Part shown: positions 4,362 through 39,183 of the stretch, piece after piece
Layout: each line of letters opens with the position of its first letter
Numbering within the stretch: the first letter of the stretch is position 1
From: a virus
Reading direction: 5' to 3' (one strand)
IMG/VR virus record: IMGVR_UViG_3300035179_000029
Span: 1-39,183 of that record
DNA: 39,183 bases
Notes under the pieces: model-generated
Told to the model about the DNA's origin: nothing
Seen by the model: the letters and a program-made list of their open reading frames with translations, nothing else
Database searches by the model: none
Translations under genes and position numbers: made by a program

Positions 4362-4391
4362 TTGACCTGGCCGGAACTTTCGGGCTAAAGT
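4362..4391 (+). promoter_or_regulatory. Sigma70-type promoter in the gap before the head genes
   Basis: TTGACC (4362-4367) and TAAAGT (4386-4391), 18 bp apart. Transcription would start near 4398. Either the head operon or a short RNA ending at the terminator at 4509-4551 would be made. Confidence 0.5.
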
Positions 4392-4397
4392 ATCTTG

Positions 4398-4551
4398 AGA
4401 GGCGCAAGGTTCACGGGCGGGAGGTCAGGACCATGAGGTAGCGGACGGGCCAGGGTCAGCGCGCTCGGGTCGCTCCCGGAAGCGGCTGAAGACATCCGAA
4501 TAAGTTACGCGGGCCGGTTGGGGCCAACCCCTCAACGGCCCGCTTTCTTTT
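4398..4551 (+). ncRNA. Possible small RNA between promoter and terminator
   Basis: About 150 nt lie between a promoter and a strong terminator with no open frame longer than a few codons; the only ATG (4432) is followed at once by a stop. It is not a tRNA or a tmRNA that I recognise. It could be a phage regulatory RNA, an attenuated leader of the head operon, or the packaging site region. Confidence 0.35.
4509..4551 (+). terminator. Strong rho-independent terminator/attenuator before head operon
   Basis: GCGGGCCG pairs with CGGCCCGC, continued by GTTGGGG with CCCC-CAAC (one bulged T), and is followed by TTTCTTTT. It lies 37 bp before the first head gene, so either it ends a short RNA or it attenuates transcription into the head genes. 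Confidence 0.8.
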
Positions 4552-4587
4552 CGGCCCTGGCCCGTCGCTCCTCAGCCGGAGAAACGA

Positions 4588-16472: not shown

Positions 16473-19400
16473 GTGCCTGTTGTCGATAGGGTGCTCGGCT
16501 ACCCGGAGACCTGCACCATTGCCGACAATGGCGCGGGCAAAGTCCGCGTTACGCTTCAGGGCAACGCTCTTGACCCCAAGTTCTACGCCGCGATTGCCGT
16601 GGACGGCTCCCACTATCTCGACAACGTGACCCAAGCTGGCGGCACCGCCGCAGTCACGGCGAAGGGCGGGACGAAAGCCCAGGGTTATTATTTTGACCTC
16701 GGCGGGGTGAACTTTCCTAGCGCCTCCTGGGCCGCGGCTGACCGCATCTGTCCGATTCGGCAGAGCACGGCCTACAATTATACCGCATGGGCGACCTTGC
16801 ACGCAGCGGCCTCCTCGATGGACACGGCGATCCTCTTTGGGTTGTCCACCACCCAAACCCGATATGATTGGGATGCCACCAACCTTGTTGGAAAAGGTTT
16901 TTCGATCTGGGGTGGACCCCTGGGGCAAAAAATTGTTTTGCATGGATCGAATTTCTCGGGTGACCTCTCTTCTCAAACCTCAATGGTAACCATTGAAAAC
17001 TGTCTAATCAATGGGCATGGCGGTTACTCGGGAATTGTCTATGCTCCAGGCAACGGCACGCCTGGGGCCGGCTTACTGGTTTCGCGATGCATTTTGGTGG
17101 GCCTCGCACAGGCGATATATGCACAACAGTACGCAGGAGACAATCTTGTCCAAGCAGTAAACTGCGTGTTTGCTCATAACCTGAACGCGCTTTACTCCTA
17201 CCAGGCGACTTGGAAGATGGTTGCCATCAACTGCACCTTCATTGAAAATTCCTCCGGCAACTATTTCAAGGCGGCGTCTACCATAACCAACTGTTTGTTC
17301 GTCGGAAATGTGTCAGATGGAACGACCACCACAAAACTAAATTGTGCATCCGACCAAGGATGTGTTGGCACGGGGTGCCTGCAAAATCAAACCCTTGCGC
17401 AGTTGGCTCTATGGTCTGGCAACGATAATGGGATTGGCGTCCGTGCTGGCCGAATCCTCACAACCTCGACCTGTTACGGTGCGGGGACGGCAACTGGTGC
17501 GCCTACAGTAGATATAGACTACAACACCCGGGCAGCAACTCCCTCCATCGGCGCCCACGAGGGCACCGTCAACGCCTACGGGGTGACGTGGCTCGCGGCT
17601 GGAGTCCTGCACACTGACCAGTCGCAGATATCTTTCGCCGGCACCATCACTGGCACGATGCCGCGTACTACCGTCGTCCCCACCGCCCTGACGCTGACCG
17701 CCTACGCGGACGGCGACACGACGGTGACGGTTTCCAACATCGCCAGCATCGCCGCGACCGACGTGCTCGAAATCTATCTCGATGGCGTGAGCATCTACAA
17801 AATCAGCCGGGCGAAGTATGAGGCGGTTGTCGAGGACAAGCCGGCCAACTGTGGTCGAATCTCCTGCCTCGCGCGCGGCACGGCCTACGCCGCAAACCGA
17901 TTCACCGCGAAATACACCAGCGACCTCTACGTCTACGGCGCCGCCAGTGCGAACCCGGCCAACCCGGTGACGCCGGACCTGGACGTGACCGACACGCGAT
18001 TCCTGGTCAAGGAAGCTTTGTCCACACGGAACCAAGTCGTCACCCCACTCAGCGCCGTCCCGTCTCCCGCCAACGGCGGCCCGGCGGCGTGGACGCAACT
18101 GGGAGTGAGCAGGGTGGGAACGGGCGATAAGGTGCTAAGTCTCGTCAACGAGGTCGCCCGCAACACCATCGTGGCCACCAAGGTTGAAGCCCTCCACGCG
18201 TACCTGCACTTGGGGGCTCCGGCGGAGGGGGAATTACCTGTCCTAGTGGGCCTCCCGATCATCGACCTTCGGCCCGTTCACACAGCACCAGGAGAGGATT
18301 ACGTCGCTTCCTTCTTTCTTGGGCAGACGGTGCGGGCGGCGGGTTCCCTGCTCTTCGAGAAGCCCACTACGGCCACCGTCACCCTGGCCGTTCAAAAAAC
18401 GGATGGAAGTTCTGGCCAGACTCTTCTATGGAACAAGGTAGTCGATTTCTTGGCCGGCGTGTCCAAGACCTATGCGGAGATGAATGACGACGAAGAGGTT
18501 GACTGGACGCCGGGTGAGGCTGAAGACTGGGAGCTAATCCTAACGGTTGCAGAGTATCCCGAGGTTGATGACCGTGCAGGATTTGCCGTCTTAGACCCCG
18601 ACACTCTCGATACCCCCGACCCTGCCGACGTGCGGGAGACAACGACCACGGGCGGGGAACCGGGTGAGATTCCCCAGAGCGATATTGAGGTCGCCAGCGG
18701 CGGGACCTTGAACCTGGCTACCCTCCTGGCCGGCGCCTATGCTTCTGGCTATGCGGCTGCGGAGGCATTCTTCGGGGCCTGGGAAGCTGCCCGGAACACG
18801 GCCCTGTCCGCTTCCAAGGTGGCTCTGGGATGGGTATTCCGGCAGTTCGGCATTGACGATATCGGGGAGCTGGACATAGTCGAACCAGAGGCGCCTTCCT
18901 GGGGCGCCGCTCCGGTCGCTGGCGATGGGAAGGTGACGCTGAACGTCCTGACGGTGAACCCAACCGATAAGGTTTATGCCCGGAGCGCTAGTTTCAGTTT
19001 CGCGCCGTCCTGGTCGGCTGAGTCGGAGATCTTCCAGCGGACCGGATCCGGCCCCATCGTCATGACCGGCCTGCCGAACGAGCAGTTCCGCATGTTCACG
19101 ATCTACGTCAAGAAGAACGGGCTTACCTCCGTCGCGTTGGCCCCGCGCTTCAAGACCCCCACGGCCGGCGCCCAGGCGGTCATCGAGCAGATCATGGACG
19201 CGGTGACGGACCAGGTGAACGCTCTGGGGCTAACCTCCAAATCCGAAGCCGGCGCCGCCGTGGCCATCGCTGCCGAAGTCGAGATCCCACCGAAGTTTGC
19301 CAGCGTGAACACGCCCGGTGTCAAGGTCTACCCCGACACGGAGGAGGCCGAGCCGGTCCGTTCGCGGAACCAGGTGACTTACCGGGTCAACGTGGCCTTC

Positions 19401-25889: not shown

Positions 25890-26124
25890 TTCCAATTCCT
25901 GGTTTGGTAGGGCAGGCGGGGCTGGCCGGGACATTCCAGCGGAGCTCCGGCCTGGCCGCGGCCAGGATGCCCAGGAGCGCCCGGCGGAGCGTGGCCCGGT
26001 CTGAGGCCCCCAGCGCGCGGGCCGTCTCGGGCCGGACCACCAGCCAGCAGCCCTGCGACCCCGCCGGCCAGATCTGCGGCCTCCCGGCTCCCGGCGCCCG
26101 ATGCTTTTTCCGCCTGCCCCTCAT
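25882..26124 (-). CDS. Small basic protein, 80 aa, first gene of the minus-strand block
   Basis: Minus strand. ATG at 26124 preceded by GGAGG at eight bases; upstream starts in frame are possible. Basic N terminus (MRGRRKKHRAPGAGRPQIW), then VVRPETARALGASDRATLRRALLGILAAARPELRW, which could be a helix pair. Overlaps the next gene by 8 bp, so the three genes form one operon. Function unknown; a nucleic-acid- or membrane-associated regulator is possible. Confidence 0.6.
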   Translation of the reverse strand: MRGRRKKHRAPGAGRPQIWPAGSQGCWLVVRPETARALGASDRATLRRALLGILAAARPELRWNVPASPACPTKPGIGNG

Positions 26125-26143
26125 CCTCGCATCCTCCGCGGAT

Positions 26144-26172
26144 ACTCTACCCTCGTCGGCCCCCAAAAGCAA
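26144..26172 (-). promoter_or_regulatory. Minus-strand promoter for the secreted/membrane block
   Basis: Read on the minus strand: TTGCTT (26172-26167), 17 bp, TAGAGT (26149-26144). It lies about 20 bp before the ribosome-binding site of the 80-aa gene. Confidence 0.5.
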
Positions 26173-26196
26173 GGCAAATATTTCCCGGAATTATCC

Positions 26197-26224
26197 TTGT
26201 GTTTTCCGGGGACTCGGATATACT
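26197..26224 (+). promoter_or_regulatory. Plus-strand promoter for the 26291 gene cluster
   Basis: TTGTGT (26197-26202) and TATACT (26219-26224), 16 bp apart, preceded by the AT-rich GCAAATATTTCCCGGAATT. The upstream element recurs at 28481-28501 and its 3' part also at 37842. Confidence 0.55.
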
Positions 26225-26231
26225 ACCTATA

Positions 26232-26248
26232 GAGCTGATGAGCAGCTC
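26232..26248 (+). promoter_or_regulatory. Palindrome at the predicted transcription start
   Basis: GAGCTG-ATGAG-CAGCTC, perfect 6-bp arms, starting 8 bp after the -10 box. It could be an operator or a 5' mRNA hairpin. Confidence 0.45.
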
Positions 26249-26290
26249 AGGCAGCCCGGGGGCCGACACCTGGGACGAGGAGAGACTCAG

Positions 26291-27220
26291 ATGATGACCC
26301 TGATCAGATTCGCGGCCTACGAGATCCCCGGGACCGAGCGGCAGCGCGCCGAGGCCCTTCGAGCCTGGCCGGGGCTGACCCCCGCGCTGCGCGAGGAGAT
26401 CGCGCGCACGGCATGGGCACTCCACAGTCAGGCCTACGAGAGCCGCGAGCGGCGCCGGATGCTCCGGTATCAGCCGGCCCGGACCGGCTACCGCCTGCCC
26501 GAGGGGCAACCGATCTACCGGCTCCCCGAGTTCCGCCGCCGCCGCCGGACCGAGCCGACGATTGCCATGATCCGCGCCTGCGGCGGAGCCTGGCAGCGGG
26601 CTATCGATATCCGGGTGGAGCTGGCCACCAGGCCAGGCGGCGAGGGCATCCGGCTGATCTCCGAGATCCAGTGGGATCGGCCCTACAAGGCCGGCCGGCA
26701 CAATTGGCCGAGCCGCCGCTGGACTGCCATCGTAGTCAGCCTGCCGGCCTCCGGCGAGCTGCCGGAGAAAACCGGCGACCGACGGCTCCGGATAGGCCGT
26801 TGGGAGTACGAGCTCGCTTCGCGGTCGCTCTCCGTCCGGCTCCGCTACCTGCCGGGGACCGAGGCCGAGGACCGCGCGGCCCTGCGCGCCGCGCGTGGCC
26901 GCGACGGCTGGGCCGGCGGAAACCAGGAGCGCCTGCGGGCGCTCCTCCAGGCCTGCGGCCCGGACCGCCTGGGGCTGGAGGTGCAGGTAGTCCAGGCCGA
27001 CGATTTCGGAAGGCTGCTCCGGGTCGGCGACCGGGAGCCGGAGGCCTCGGCGGCCGCCGGCCGGATCACCGAGCTCGGGCAGGTGGTAGAGGTGCGCTGT
27101 CCGAGCACCGGGAGAATCTACTGGCTCACGGTGCCGCGCGGCATTCGCACCGCGCGGGAGGCGGTCGGCGCGACGTTCCGCGTTCCGGCCGGCAACTACA
27201 GCCCGGCCTACGAATCGTAG
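26291..27220 (+). CDS. Unknown protein, 309 aa; end resembles DUF6745
   Basis: ATG 26291 with a GAGGAGAG site 8-13 bases upstream, following the promoter at 26197. Arg-rich, beta and helix mixed; segments TIAMIRACGGAWQRAIDIRVE and LRLRIGRWEYELASRSLSVRLRYLPG. The end, IYWLTVPRGIRTAREAVGATF then AYES, is similar to the C terminus of DUF6745 proteins as I remember it (unverified). The next gene is of a kind that I associate with DUF6745 in bacteria, which supports the reading. Function unknown; no enzyme motif. Confidence 0.55.
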   Translation: MMTLIRFAAYEIPGTERQRAEALRAWPGLTPALREEIARTAWALHSQAYESRERRRMLRYQPARTGYRLPEGQPIYRLPEFRRRRRTEPTIAMIRACGGAWQRAIDIRVELATRPGGEGIRLISEIQWDRPYKAGRHNWPSRRWTAIVVSLPASGELPEKTGDRRLRIGRWEYELASRSLSVRLRYLPGTEAEDRAALRAARGRDGWAGGNQERLRALLQACGPDRLGLEVQVVQADDFGRLLRVGDREPEASAAAGRITELGQVVEVRCPSTGRIYWLTVPRGIRTAREAVGATFRVPAGNYSPAYES

Positions 27221-27231
27221 CCCGGGCCGAA

Positions 27232-27274
27232 ACGGGGAGCGAGCGCTCCCCGTCTGGGCGGCGGATACCGCCCA
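27232..27274 (+). other. Two tandem hairpins in a 120-bp gap
   Basis: ACGGGGAGCG-AG-CGCTCCCCGT (27232-27253; the 2-nt loop would open by one pair), then TGGGCGG-CGGATA-CCGCCCA (27255-27274). Neither has a T tract. The rest of the gap to 27340 is GC-rich with no gene seen. The pair could attenuate transcription or control translation of the next gene. Confidence 0.5.
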
Positions 27275-27340
27275 CTGACGAGGCCGCGGCCAGAGCGCCG
27301 CCGGAGGCCGGACCCGGAGAACCGGCGAGGAGCGAGAGCG

Positions 27341-27661
27341 GTGCAAATCCGACACGGAGATCTGCTGCTGGAAAGAGTGGAAAGCACGGAGGGGTCCGGC
27401 AGCCGCCGGACGCGCGGACTGGTGCTGGCCCGCGGCGAGGCCACCGGCCACGCGCACACGCTGCGCGGAGCGGTGGAGGTGCTCGACGGCCCGGTCGCGG
27501 AGCCCACGCGTATCCGGCTGGCCGAGCCGACGGTGCTCGACCACCAGGAGCACGCACCGCTGCTGATCCCCGCCGGAGAGTGGGTGATCCGGCGGCAGAG
27601 CGAGTGGGTCAGCGATCCGGCCGGCGGCCCGCAGCGGGCCTGGTCGCGGGTGGCGGACTAG
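27341..27661 (+). CDS. Conserved small protein, 106 aa, unknown
   Basis: GTG start at 27341 after GAGGAGCGAGAG. The pattern HGDLLLERVES, LARGEATGHAHTL, EPTVLDHQEHAPLLIPAGEWVIRRQSEW and the end VAD matches a family that I recall from bacteria (RQGDVLL... TGHAHA... HEEHxPI.LPxGxYxVxRQxEY...VAD). It is a beta-rich protein with several His residues (TGHAHT, HQEHA), which could bind a metal. No function assigned in memory. The following gene starts right at its stop. Confidence 0.7.
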   Translation: MQIRHGDLLLERVESTEGSGSRRTRGLVLARGEATGHAHTLRGAVEVLDGPVAEPTRIRLAEPTVLDHQEHAPLLIPAGEWVIRRQSEWVSDPAGGPQRAWSRVAD

Positions 27662-27997
27662 ATGGTCCGTCGGCTGAGCCCCGAGAATCGTCGGCTGCTG
27701 GCGGCCGTCGCCGGCATCCTCGACGAGAAGCCGCGGCCCGAGGTGGTCCTCCTCTGGGAGATAGCCGAGGAGGACCATCCGGCCTGGCTCGCCGCCGGCT
27801 GCGGCGACCTGCCACTCGACGAGTATCGCGAGCGGCTGGAGGAGGTCGAGGCCCTGGCTCTCCGCGAGGGCCGGCAACCGATCCGAGTGGAGGCCACCAC
27901 CGAGGAGATGCTGGAGGCCCTGGCCGAGCTGGGCCTCCCCAACGATCCGCAGGGGAGGAGCGTCGCACTCCTCCACCTGGGACTGAGAGAGGAGTAG
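27662..27997 (+). CDS. Small acidic protein of unknown function, 111 aa
   Basis: ATG abuts the previous stop (TAGATG). Glu/Leu-rich and probably helical (EEDHPAWLAAGCGDLPLDEYRERLEEVEALALREG). No metal or HTH motif. It is the third of four coupled genes in this cluster. Confidence 0.6.
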   Translation: MVRRLSPENRRLLAAVAGILDEKPRPEVVLLWEIAEEDHPAWLAAGCGDLPLDEYRERLEEVEALALREGRQPIRVEATTEEMLEALAELGLPNDPQGRSVALLHLGLREE

Positions 27998-28000
27998 CCC

Positions 28001-28408
28001 ATGGAGTCCATCACTGTCCCCCGCACCGGCGACCTGCCCCTGGCGTTCGAGGGGCAGGTGATCGCCTCGGCCGGGTCGCGCCTGGTCCGCGGCCAGGAGC
28101 GCAACCGCTGGCACGAGATCGAGCTCTACCGCACCGCCGGCGGAAAATTCGTGGCGGCGATCCACTGCCGCACGATCTGGCAGGGAGAGCAGGACCACGA
28201 CTGCGCCGCGGTGCTCGACGGTCCGCCGGGGATCGCGGAGTACCTGCGCACGTGGATCCCGGCCTCAGTAATCCGCGGCTACCCGCCGGGAGTCGGCTAC
28301 GAGGAGAAACAGCAGCGCATGCTGGCCACCGTCGAGGCCGATTACCAGAGCCTGATCTCCGAGGTCCTGGCCGCGGCCGGGCCGGAGTTCGTCGAGCGGG
28401 TGGAGTAG
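28001..28408 (+). CDS. Conserved hypothetical protein, 135 aa
   Basis: Three bases after the previous stop. The core HEIELYRTAGGKFVAAIHCRTIWQGEQDHDCAAVLD is a beta-hairpin-rich segment that I recall from uncharacterised bacterial proteins. A helical end follows (EEKQQRMLATVEADYQSLISEVLAAAGPEFVERV). Last gene of this cluster: a strong terminator lies 30 bp downstream. Function unknown. Confidence 0.65.
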   Translation: MESITVPRTGDLPLAFEGQVIASAGSRLVRGQERNRWHEIELYRTAGGKFVAAIHCRTIWQGEQDHDCAAVLDGPPGIAEYLRTWIPASVIRGYPPGVGYEEKQQRMLATVEADYQSLISEVLAAAGPEFVERVE

Positions 28409-28437
28409 CCGCAACGGCACCCGGAGACAGGGGCCAC

Positions 28438-28474
28438 GCGGAGCGCGGGAAAGGATCCCGCGCTCCGCTTTTTT
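28438..28474 (+). terminator. Strong rho-independent terminator ending the 26291-28408 cluster
   Basis: Thirteen-pair stem (GCGGAGCGCGGGA with its complement) with loop AAGGA, followed by six T. Confidence 0.92.
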
Positions 28475-28486
28475 GGGGCCGCAAAT

Positions 28487-28533
28487 AATTCCCCCGGAAT
28501 TGTCTTGACAACGAGCCGCCCCCGGGATATAGA
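28487..28533 (+). promoter_or_regulatory. Strong sigma70 promoter with upstream palindrome
   Basis: TTGACA (28505-28510), 17-bp spacer, TATAGA (28528-28533). Directly before it AATTCC-CCC-GGAATT (28487-28501) is a perfect inverted repeat, preceded by GCAAATA, similar to the sequence at 26174-26194. Transcription would start near 28540 and read into the structured segment below. Confidence 0.75.
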
Positions 28534-28558
28534 AAGGTTGTCGGGAGCCGGAGCGACG

Positions 28559-28693
28559 ATGACCACGCCGACGAAATCCGAATTCGGGGGAGCTGGACGC
28601 GCCAAAGGCGCGCCTGCTCTCGACAGCGGTTCACCGCGGCCGGCCGGCTCCCCTGTTTCCCCTTCCGCTGCATCCCATAACCCCGCGGCCTGA
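28559..28693 (+). CDS. Possible 44-aa ORF inside the structured leader
   Basis: ATG 28559 with a GGAG-like site. The peptide is Ser/Pro/Ala-rich without any motif. It overlaps the structured RNA at 28586-28654, so either a leader peptide or not translated at all. Low confidence. Confidence 0.25.
   Translation: MTTPTKSEFGGAGRAKGAPALDSGSPRPAGSPVSPSAASHNPAA
28586..28654 (+). ncRNA. Structured RNA candidate (branched, three stems)
   Basis: A ten-pair outer stem, GGGGAGCTGG (28587-28596) with CCGGCTCCCC (28644-28653, one G-U), encloses CGCGCC-AAA-GGCGCG (28598-28612) and GCGG-TTCA-CCGC (28626-28637). It is 46 bp downstream of a strong promoter's expected start. It is too short, and its arms are wrong, for a tRNA. 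Candidate small RNA or riboswitch-like leader. Confidence 0.5.
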
Positions 28694-28707
28694 CTGGAGG
28701 AACGACC

Positions 28708-28812
28708 ATGCCCGCAGCTCTTTCCCCTTCCGCCACGTCCGATAATAGATGCTCGGACGCGAAAATAATACTACTCGATACTAGCCCAAGAATGCCCCCG
28801 GGGATGCGGTAG
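28708..28812 (+). CDS. Possible 34-aa small peptide
   Basis: ATG 28708 preceded by GGAGG at 28696-28700. 34 codons to TAG; no motif, mixed composition. Its first codons contain a copy of a 25-bp direct repeat (see 28656). Coding is supported only by the ribosome-binding site. Confidence 0.35.
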   Translation: MPAALSPSATSDNRCSDAKIILLDTSPRMPPGMR

Positions 28813-28836
28813 AATAGCCCCCGGGAGGTATCGGCG

Positions 28837-29469
28837 ATGAAGAGTCCGCACGGGTATCAAATGACGCGCTTCCTACTGGAGCGCGCCCCGTCCCTCACGA
28901 AAGCCATCGAGATGATGCCGGCCGCGCCGCCGCGGTGCAGCGACATCGACCTCCTCCGGGCCTGGGAAGCGGCCTGGCGTTTCTGGCGCTCGGAGATTCT
29001 TTTCCCCGCCTTGGCCAAGGAAAGGGCCGGCCTCAATGATCGCGTCGCCCTCATCCGTGCTGGAGCACCTGGGAGAACTGCGGGCCGAGTTGGAGCGCTG
29101 CGAGAAGCGGCTGGCCTACTACCAGGAGAGCGCCAAGCCGCAGGGGATCCGGGTGGAGCTGGCGCTCCGCCGGAAACTCCGGGACCGGATCGCACTCCGG
29201 GAGTCCGTCTTGCCATCATCCTCCCGGTGATGCTGGGGCTGGCGGAAGTCTGCGCCGCCGCCGGCGTCGGCCCGGATTCCGTCAACCGGGCGGTGTTCCT
29301 GACCCGCAAGGGGCGGGCGCTGCCCGGCGATCCGAACCACCTCCCGCGGGCCATGCGGATCGCGCGCGGCTTCGCGCGGGCGGACGTGCTCCGATGGATT
29401 GCTGCCCGCGAGGCCATCGCCTCACCCGCCATGGCCCCGCTCCAGGAAGAACAGCGGAGGCCGGCATGA
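28837..29469 (+). CDS. Unusual 210-aa frame: helical N-terminal protein running through another gene into an AlpA/MerR-like HTH
   Basis: Good GGGAGGT site before the ATG. Residues 1-66 look like real coding sequence (FLLERAPSLTKAIEMM, LLRAWEAAWRFWRSEILFPALAKERAGL). Residues about 67-130 have low third-position GC and appear to be the shadow of a coiled-coil gene in another frame (29036-29230). From ATG 29230, LGLAEVCAAAGVGPDSVNRAVFLTRKGRALPG... with ADVLRWIAAREAI is a small AlpA/MerR-type HTH (79 aa), probably translated by itself. So this frame likely contains an N-terminal gene that lost its stop, plus the HTH gene. Confidence 0.45.
   Translation: MKSPHGYQMTRFLLERAPSLTKAIEMMPAAPPRCSDIDLLRAWEAAWRFWRSEILFPALAKERAGLNDRVALIRAGAPGRTAGRVGALREAAGLLPGERQAAGDPGGAGAPPETPGPDRTPGVRLAIILPVMLGLAEVCAAAGVGPDSVNRAVFLTRKGRALPGDPNHLPRAMRIARGFARADVLRWIAAREAIASPAMAPLQEEQRRPA
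29036..29230 (+). CDS. Coiled-coil protein, 64 aa
   Basis: ATG 29036 with a GGAAAGGG site. EHLGELRAELERCEKRLAYYQESAK and VELALRRKLRDRIALRESV are clear coiled-coil helices. The third-position GC is very high, as in neighbouring genes, while the overlapping frame has a mixed pattern, so this is the true gene here. Its stop overlaps the ATG of the HTH gene (TGATG at 29228-29232). Confidence 0.6.
   Translation: MIASPSSVLEHLGELRAELERCEKRLAYYQESAKPQGIRVELALRRKLRDRIALRESVLPSSSR
29230..29469 (+). CDS. AlpA/MerR-like helix-turn-helix protein, 79 aa
   Basis: ATG 29230 overlapping the coiled-coil gene stop. Pattern LAEVCAAAGVGPDSVNRAVFLTRKGRALPGDPNHLPRAMRIARGFARADVLRWIAAREA: a helix-turn-helix followed by a strand-wing-like loop and a helix with FARADVLRWI, as in AlpA and excisionase-like DNA-binding domains. 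Shares its frame with the longer 28837-29469 entry. Phage regulatory or excision factor; no integrase is in the window. Confidence 0.55.
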   Translation: MLGLAEVCAAAGVGPDSVNRAVFLTRKGRALPGDPNHLPRAMRIARGFARADVLRWIAAREAIASPAMAPLQEEQRRPA

Positions 29470-30011: not shown

Positions 30012-30416
30012 ATGGCACGAACCGGCGCGGCGGATCCGGCGACCTCCCAAGAGGCCGCCGATGGTGTGGAGCGGTCGGGGCTGGCCCAGGCCCATCGCCG
30101 CCTCTGCCTCGACGCCGTCCGGGCCGAGCCCGGACTCACGTCCGCGGAGCTTGCCGTGGCCCTGGGCACCCGCGGATTCCCCCTCTCCCGCTTCCAGGTC
30201 GCCCGCCGGCTGCCGGAACTCCTGGCGGCCGGCGATTCCCCCGGACACCTCATCCAGGGGGAACTCCGGAAATGCAACGTGACCCGTAAGCGATGCGTGA
30301 CCTGGTGGCCCCTGAACGTGGGGCCGGCCGCTCCGACGAGCGACGCCGCGAAGGGCGCGCCCCCCGCGCCTGCCCCGGTCCGGAACCTTGCCCCGGCGGC
30401 CCCAAGGCTTTTCTGA
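30012..30416 (+). CDS. Winged-helix-like DNA-binding protein, 134 aa
   Basis: AAGGGAG site before the ATG. Residues 30-85 carry a winged-helix pattern (AHRRLCLDAVRAEPGLTSAELAVALGTRGFPLSRFQVARRLPELLAAG), then KCNVTRKRCVTWW, the wing with a Trp pair common in phage HTH proteins. The C terminus is Pro/Ala-rich. It lies seven bases before the methyltransferase fragment. Probable transcription regulator. Confidence 0.65.
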   Translation: MARTGAADPATSQEAADGVERSGLAQAHRRLCLDAVRAEPGLTSAELAVALGTRGFPLSRFQVARRLPELLAAGDSPGHLIQGELRKCNVTRKRCVTWWPLNVGPAAPTSDAAKGAPPAPAPVRNLAPAAPRLF

Positions 30417-30423
30417 GGAACGT

Positions 30424-30738
30424 ATGAACCGCATCATCCGCGCAGCCGACCTATTCTGTGGCGCCGGGGGCACCACCACCGGGCTCATGCAGGCCGCTCA
30501 GGGCCTGGGGCTCGACGTGCGGCTGGTGGCCGTCAACCACTGGGAGCGGGCGATGGAAACCTTCGCCCACAACCATCCCCTGGCCGAGCACTACATGACT
30601 GACCTCTCGGGGCTCAAGCCCTCCAAGGCGGTGCCCGGCCGCCGGCTCGACTTGCTGGTGGCCTCGCCGGAATGCACCCACCACTCTAACGCGCGCGGCG
30701 GCAAGCCCTGCGACGACCAGTCGCTGGTGCGGAAGTGA
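30424..30738 (+). pseudogene. Truncated C5 cytosine DNA methyltransferase, 104 aa
   Basis: Begins like a C5 methyltransferase: RAADLFCGAGG (motif I) and LLVASPECTHHSNARGGKP (motif IV region, catalytic Cys in SPEC) before ending at CDDQSLVRK. All later motifs (VI, VIII, IX, X and the target recognition domain) are missing; intact enzymes exceed 300 aa. The TGA at 30736-30738 overlaps the start of the next gene, an ASCH protein, which replaced the rest. It is probably inactive, but the fragment keeps a ribosome-binding site and may still be translated. Confidence 0.75.
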
Positions 30739-38689: not shown

Positions 38690-39183
38690 ATGTGCAAAGC
38701 AATCAGTGGTATCGCGGTTCTGGCTGACGGGGTGCTCAAGGTCTACACGTCGGGCAAGTCGGATTCGCACACCGTAATCCGCGAGGAACACAAGATCCGG
38801 GACGATGCTGGACCTGGCGCAACCCGCCAGACCCCGGTGGGACTGGTCCCGGTTCGCGGGGTCGCCCTCCTGGCAGACATGAAATTTGAGTTCGACGCCG
38901 GCAGGCCCGACTGGTGGGCGGAGGAGCACACAGAACAGGCGAAGGCGCAACTATTCGCGGCCTGGCGCGAGCGATGGAGAGGATCGACGCTCTATTTCGG
39001 CGGTTACCTCGACCTCAGGTCGCTGACCAGTCTGCCGGCGAACGCCAAGCTGTCCGCTGGCGGTTACCTCGACCTCAGGTCGCTGACCAGTCTGCCGGCG
39101 AACGCCAAGCTGTCCGCTGACGGTTACCTCTACCTCAGGTCGCTGACCAGTCTGCCGGCGAACGCCAAGCTGTCCGCTGACGG
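38690..39183 (+). CDS. Leucine-rich-repeat protein, N-terminal part (continues at position 1)
   Basis: ATG 38690 with GGAGGAG upstream. Residues 1-100 form a head domain beginning MCKAISGIAVLADGVLKV, then SDSHTVIREEHKIRDD, a pattern that I recall from phage-encoded proteins that carry other repeats. From residue 104 on, 20-residue repeats GGYLDLRSLTSLPANAKLSA begin and continue to the window end; the frame continues in 1-333. No signal peptide or membrane helix. Function unknown; perhaps a binding solenoid made with the early genes. Confidence 0.75.
   Translation, partial: MCKAISGIAVLADGVLKVYTSGKSDSHTVIREEHKIRDDAGPGATRQTPVGLVPVRGVALLADMKFEFDAGRPDWWAEEHTEQAKAQLFAAWRERWRGSTLYFGGYLDLRSLTSLPANAKLSAGGYLDLRSLTSLPANAKLSADGYLYLRSLTSLPANAKLSAD
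39001..39183 (+). repeat. Tandem 60-bp coding repeats, about three units
   Basis: Units start at 39001, 39061 and 39121, nearly identical to each other and to those at 1-234. The last 20 bases equal bases 1-20, so the assembly ended within the array. Confidence 0.95.

Follow-up and report, generated by a model that had tools for sequence, protein, structure and literature searches.

A probable transcription-unit boundary with a candidate sigma-70-type promoter and a palindromic upstream box in an uncultured, GC-rich tailed phage

Inspection of the region around 28.5 kb of an uncultured virus record indicates that it most likely marks where one rightward transcription unit of a GC-rich tailed phage ends and the next begins. 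On balance we favour a reading in which this boundary carries a sigma-70-type promoter and the palindromic box directly upstream either acts in the manner of an UP element or binds a regulator, possibly one common to two early units. The initial annotation had described the same DNA elements together with a branched RNA near the transcript start. The DNA elements were recovered; the outer stem of the RNA has nine pairs in place of ten, and the fold as a whole is not unusual. The promoter half of its interpretation is supported and the half that invoked a regulatory RNA or riboswitch is not. The analysis locates a transcription-unit boundary in an uncultured phage and suggests a shared control box for two early units, which can be tested by reporter.

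The unit boundary and its promoter core

The window analysed here is the whole virus record (IMGVR_UViG_3300035179_000029; 39,183 bases, 59-72% GC by 2-kb window), in which no tRNA and no Rfam family at gathering score was found. Genes assigned in the record include the following:

1562: gene, large terminase
4824: gene, portal
6363: gene, head-protease/major head protein

The right-hand genes code for a C5-methyltransferase fragment, a protein with ASCH-domain phage relatives, an N4/N6 methyltransferase, a replication-initiation-like protein, RuvC, and ParB-like and radical-SAM proteins. The C5-methyltransferase at 30388-30738 is shortened to 116 aa, covering profile positions 2-81 of 324, and is directly followed by the gene at 30735. 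Both ends of the record (39000-39183 and 1-240) lie inside one tandem 60-bp repeat, where a gene codes LTSLPANAKLSAGG-like units; because the ends lie in one repeat and have 20 bases in common, the genome is probably circularly complete. Four copies of ATTTCC (843, 872, 886 and 994) occupy the gap upstream of the terminase gene, among 15 in the window on both strands, and the copies at 843-999 are possible packaging or operator repeats.

The features of the 28.5-kb region are as follows:

28438 to 28474, + strand: intrinsic terminator with a 13-bp perfect stem, a 5-nt loop and TTTTTT
28483 to 28501, + strand: upstream box AAATAATTCCCCCGGAATT, which holds a 15-bp palindrome and is centred at about -46 from the predicted start
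28500 to 28511, + strand: TTGTC-TT-GACAA inverted repeat over the -35, predicted as a possible operator
28505 to 28533, + strand: promoter core TTGACA-N17-TATAGA, with a start near 28540 predicted from the -10
28540 to 28836, + strand: predicted 5' leader of ~300 nt from the putative start, in which no frame carries a clear coding signal
28543 to 28652, + strand: 9-bp outer stem with hairpins at 28598-28612 and 28626-28637 (the latter weak), not exceptional for this genome
28559 to 28693, + strand: 44-codon open frame with GGAG at 28549, codon usage against coding (-15.4 bits)
28708 to 28812, + strand: 34-codon open frame after GGAGG, codon usage against coding (-14.3 bits)
28837 to 29469, + strand: first clear genes in the rightward unit: A (from 28837), then B at 29036-29230 and C at 29230-29469

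The gene at 28001-28408 ends just 5' of the terminator, which combines a G+C-rich stem with a T run as intrinsic terminators do and has a longer stem than any other terminator-like site listed in the window. This terminator would close the unit of genes 26291-28408 and insulate the promoter behind it from that unit, such that the next rightward unit would have 28837 as its first gene and continue through the genes for methyltransferase, replication and RuvC.

The promoter core consists of a -35 TTGACA at 28505-28510 and a -10 TATAGA at 28528-28533, separated by 17 nt. Together the hexamers match the sigma-70 consensus at 10 of 12 positions, with TATAGA matching at 4 of 6 and lacking the usual final T, and their separation lies within the 16-18 nt typical of the class. 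Since sigma-70-type promoters start transcription about 7 nt after the -10, a host RNA polymerase with a sigma-70-type factor would read from about 28540. The pattern TTGACA-N16-18-TAT occurs once in the window versus 0.03 expected (at least once in 3 of 100 shuffles), and a looser promoter scan of the window ranks the 28.5-kb core best of 10 sites. A strict scan that required T at position 6 of the -10 did not list 28505-28533, precisely because TATAGA is without that T. The TTGACA/TATAGA promoter of the initial annotation therefore holds up, both hexamers being present in a core that is beyond chance and unique in the window, and its placement is that of a promoter, 3' of a terminator and 5' of a rightward gene block. 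From its hexamers the site is a plausible phage promoter of sigma-70 type. Of the inverted repeat over the -35, written as TTGTC-N0-6-GACAA, the window holds one further copy at 17827.

The leader, its predicted fold and the genes behind it

Sliding codon scores from about 28410 to 28800, based on a model of 28 training genes picked by hand, reveal no frame clearly like phage genes. The negative scores of both leader open frames, set against positive scores for gene 28001 (+88.8 bits) and the start of gene 28837 (+21.1), make the idea of a long leader reasonable, and a leader of this length without coding signal is plausible, in keeping with the initial annotation. Both frames are preceded by Shine-Dalgarno-like sequences and encode a common SPSAxSxN stretch (a 28-nt repeat, 82%), and the 28559-28693 frame yielded no family and no homologue in the phage collection. 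With their codon scores negative, we do not claim these frames as small proteins and leave the question open.

For the transcript, a ten-pair outer stem holding two hairpins had been proposed. Inspection of the predicted fold reveals nine perfect pairs, joining 28543-28551 with 28644-28652 at pairing probabilities of 0.68-1.00; of the two enclosed hairpins, that at 28598-28612 is strong (0.99-1.00) and that at 28626-28637 is not (0.15-0.37). Perfect stems of at least nine pairs enclosing at least 40 nt were present in 47 of 1503 genome windows of 130 nt, a frequency close to that in shuffles of the site (66 of 2000). Fold z-scores were -1.15 for 28536-28665, -2.28 for the trimmed 28540-28660 (5 of 200 shuffles as good), -3.59 and -3.08 for the stem-trimmed 28543-28652, and -0.46 for the uncut leader. 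The low values of the stem-trimmed segment are discounted because trimming to a stem selects low z, and 42 stem-delimited segments (21 stems, two strands) had a mean z of -2.77 with an sd of 1.38. Furthermore, 25% of 3006 genome windows (130 nt) fold at least equally well. That is to say, even with a trimmed-window z of -2.28 the leader is not stabler than its background, as a structured leader would be, and its fold energy is ordinary for this genome. The comparison of the leader region with Rfam gave no match at gathering score and three below the cut-off, at chance level only.

These results bear directly on the proposal that the leader is a structured regulatory or riboswitch-like RNA, in which the 9-bp stem would sequester the GGAG at 28549 and govern either translation or read-through. 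We consider this improbable. The firm pairing of the outer stem and first hairpin, the z-scores of the trimmed segments and a long, non-coding-looking leader argue for it, and they are opposed by the similarly low scores of other stem-delimited segments, the unremarkable uncut leader, the lack of an Rfam match and an open frame behind the covered GGAG that itself looks non-coding. As the best reading of the region it was rejected, the fold being ordinary beside the genome's own windows and stems despite z-scores of -2.28 to -3.59. The branched RNA does not stand out from the rest of this virus and represents ordinary GC-rich folding; stem-loops in the transcript would most likely be incidental products of a GC-rich leader. 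The claim of a regulatory RNA can be shelved unless relatives emerge.

A separate fold was noted in the terminase-portal gap (4362-4566), where a TTGACC-N18-TAAAGT promoter-like site precedes a branched RNA fold; this has a long outer stem plus a terminator-like hairpin with TTTCTTTT behind it. At a z of -6.64 (0 of 200 shuffles as good) it is the most structured of the 42 stem-delimited segments, and it matched no Rfam family at cut-off. In L019, the one true relative found with the terminase, the corresponding gap also carries a TTGACC promoter-like site but is shorter and has no counterpart of the fold's 3' half. The segment 4444-4566 is a much better RNA candidate than the 28.5-kb leader.

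The genes behind the leader had been termed regulatory, a description to which a single 79-aa protein lends slight support: gene C marginally matches a family of phage excisionases/regulators (E 0.0069). Gene A is open through B into C, and B and C overlap at TGATG. An ATGA overlap of A and B would require the frame to change close to the end of A (28837-29232), and therefore a sequencing error or a real frameshift is possible.

The palindromic box and a second candidate promoter

The palindrome within the upstream box, AATTCC-CCC-GGAATT at 28487-28501, has the perfect 6-bp arms around CCC that had been reported for it, as confirmed by direct reading and by pattern search. Palindromes with six-bp arms number 13 in the window at a gap of 3 bases and 218 at gaps of 0-8, and of the latter about 0.25 are expected per 45 bp. 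Taken alone the palindrome is borderline, not far from chance; among the 13, no other has mostly A/T arms. With respect to the predicted start, AAATAATT lies at about -57 to -50 and GGAATT at about -44 to -39, which places A/T arms, split by CCCCCGG, where an A/T-rich UP element would be found (about -60 to -38). A box at -57 to -39 would raise the promoter through alpha-CTD contact in an UP-like manner; alternatively, it may allow for regulation through a bound phage protein.

A similar box precedes the first gene of the preceding unit:

26176 to 26224, + strand: second candidate promoter with a like box AAATATTTCCCGGAATT and a weak -35, upstream of gene 26291-27220

Here the weak -35 TTGTGT (26197-26202) is followed after N16 by TATACT (26219-26224), and the gap before gene 26291 contains AAATATTTCCCGGAATTATCCTTGTGT-N16-TATACT. 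The box, AAATATTTCCC-GGAATT, is centred at 26186 (about -45 from the predicted start) and resembles that at 28.5 kb, with an identical GGAATT-to-GATATA distance and a 2-bp difference in the gap between the arms, which is awkward for one rigid dimer site. Two patterns composed after both sites were known, CCGGAATT-N23-28-GATATA (at 26185 and 28494, each with 24 nt between) and the split box AAATANTTCCCN0-2GGAATT, each occur twice in the window and in 0 of 100 shuffles. The alignment score to gap 25935-26290 was reached in 6 of 2000 shuffles when that gap was shuffled, in 35 of 500 when all nine gaps (picked by hand) were taken on both strands, and in 84 of 200 when the whole window was. A log-odds scan ranked 26184 best after the 28.5-kb site, its score of 12.5 lying inside the six shuffled maxima (8.7-14.6), and when ungapped matches are counted, other places in the window score as high as the 26.2-kb site or higher. 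The resemblance between the two sequences is thus suggestive, not proven. Because a like box stands equidistant from the -10 at each, the two units may be co-switched. The 26.2-kb candidate is also flanked by a 10-bp perfect inverted repeat, GTCGGCCCCC / GGGGGCCGAC (26155-26267), with arms at about -76 and +28; this 10-mer has only three exact copies in the window.

Chance companionship, in which the palindrome accompanies the promoter and is meaningless alone, is unlikely, though to be taken seriously. The abundance of such palindromes speaks for it, as do the 3 of 39 TTGACA-N15-19-TA sites outside loci L017 and L018 that have arms of at least 6 bp within 45 bp upstream, and the resemblance to 26.2 kb is within chance over the whole window; chance accounts less well for the A/T-rich arms, singular among the 13 of the class, for their placement at the UP-element position, and for a similar box at identical spacing in the other early gap. 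Less likely again is an operator for a phage repressor or activator of the kind found at phage Mu Pm, with the 26.2-kb site being activator-dependent. Both box centres, the weak TTGTGT with identical downstream spacing, the geometry of Mu Pm (PMC4390567) and small proteins at 570-824 and 29230-29469 with marginal helix-turn-helix or regulator matches are consistent with such an operator. No Mor family protein was found in the record, however, the perfect -35 at 28.5 kb should need no activator, and the binding is a prediction at sites whose arm spacings differ. More doubtful still is the specific scheme in which one phage DNA-binding protein recognises AAATAnTTCCC(CC)GGAATTnTC, tolerates the 2-bp change and co-switches two adjacent early units, one with a perfect and one with a weak -35. 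We retain the unit boundary with a sigma-70-type promoter and an UP-like or regulator-binding box.

Relatives and comparison with known systems

DNA and protein searches of phage, plasmid, viral and genome contigs found no relative covering the 28.5-kb region. DNA searches of the phage and plasmid collections gave no match, and protein searches with genes A, C and the first short open frame gave no relative. The upstream gene returned only four weak matches (E 0.06-0.09); within the viral contigs neither this gene, the methyltransferase nor the head protein had a relative, and RuvC had one distant relative. The relative found with the terminase, L019, a 15-kb contig with 65% identity, is of no help for the 28.5-kb region because all the window genes matched by the part compared (12.6 of 15.4 kb) lie between 1.5 and 14 kb, and an alignment of the two terminases found no match in bacterial genome contigs. 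The exact box-plus-TTGACA pattern occurred in only one unrelated contig. Viral contigs had 0 occurrences of the split-box pattern; it turned up in 5 contigs from bacterial genomes belonging to unrelated groups, where we estimate one or two by chance at even base composition and more in AT-rich genomes.

The 28.5-kb site shares with phage early promoters of sigma-70 type a consensus -35, a 17-nt spacer, a TATA-type -10, a terminator before and a gene block after; it differs in the final position of the -10. With UP elements, which bind alpha-CTD, it shares an A/T-containing stretch directly upstream of the -35, whereas the candidate element is broken by CCCCCGG and is not an A/T tract.

At phage Mu Pm (PMC4390567), the inverted repeat bound by a Mor dimer is centred at -43.5 and replaces the -35, with an alpha-CTD site upstream; Pm has no -35, and its repeat has 5-bp arms with a 6-bp spacer. 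Common to Pm and the 28.5-kb site are an inverted repeat with a G/C spacer centred in the mid -40s and an A/T-rich stretch upstream. In contrast to Pm, the repeat at 28.5 kb accompanies a perfect -35, and a search of the record for the Mor/C activator family (PF08765) found nothing; with no Mor family protein and a full -35, the 28.5-kb promoter is not of the Mor/Pm class. By analogy, the 26.2-kb site with its weak -35 could work like Pm. Pm shows that such an arrangement can act as a switch.

A further likeness in layout comes from IMGVR_UViG_3300010354_000050 (119 kb), which contains four exact copies of AATTCC-N3-GGAATT-N3-TTGACA. This is an AT-rich, unrelated phage in which the arms vary from promoter to promoter, and the boxes are for this reason likely convergent. 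None of the 44 window frames matched its loci L017 and L018 at E 1e-4, so we take the likeness as a parallel and not as one of descent. In these loci, 12 of the 21 listed TTGACA-type sites have arms of at least 6 bp upstream. Many promoter-like sites of this phage stand behind strong palindromes, several of them adjoining the -35, and this promoter-linked palindrome family merits separate study.
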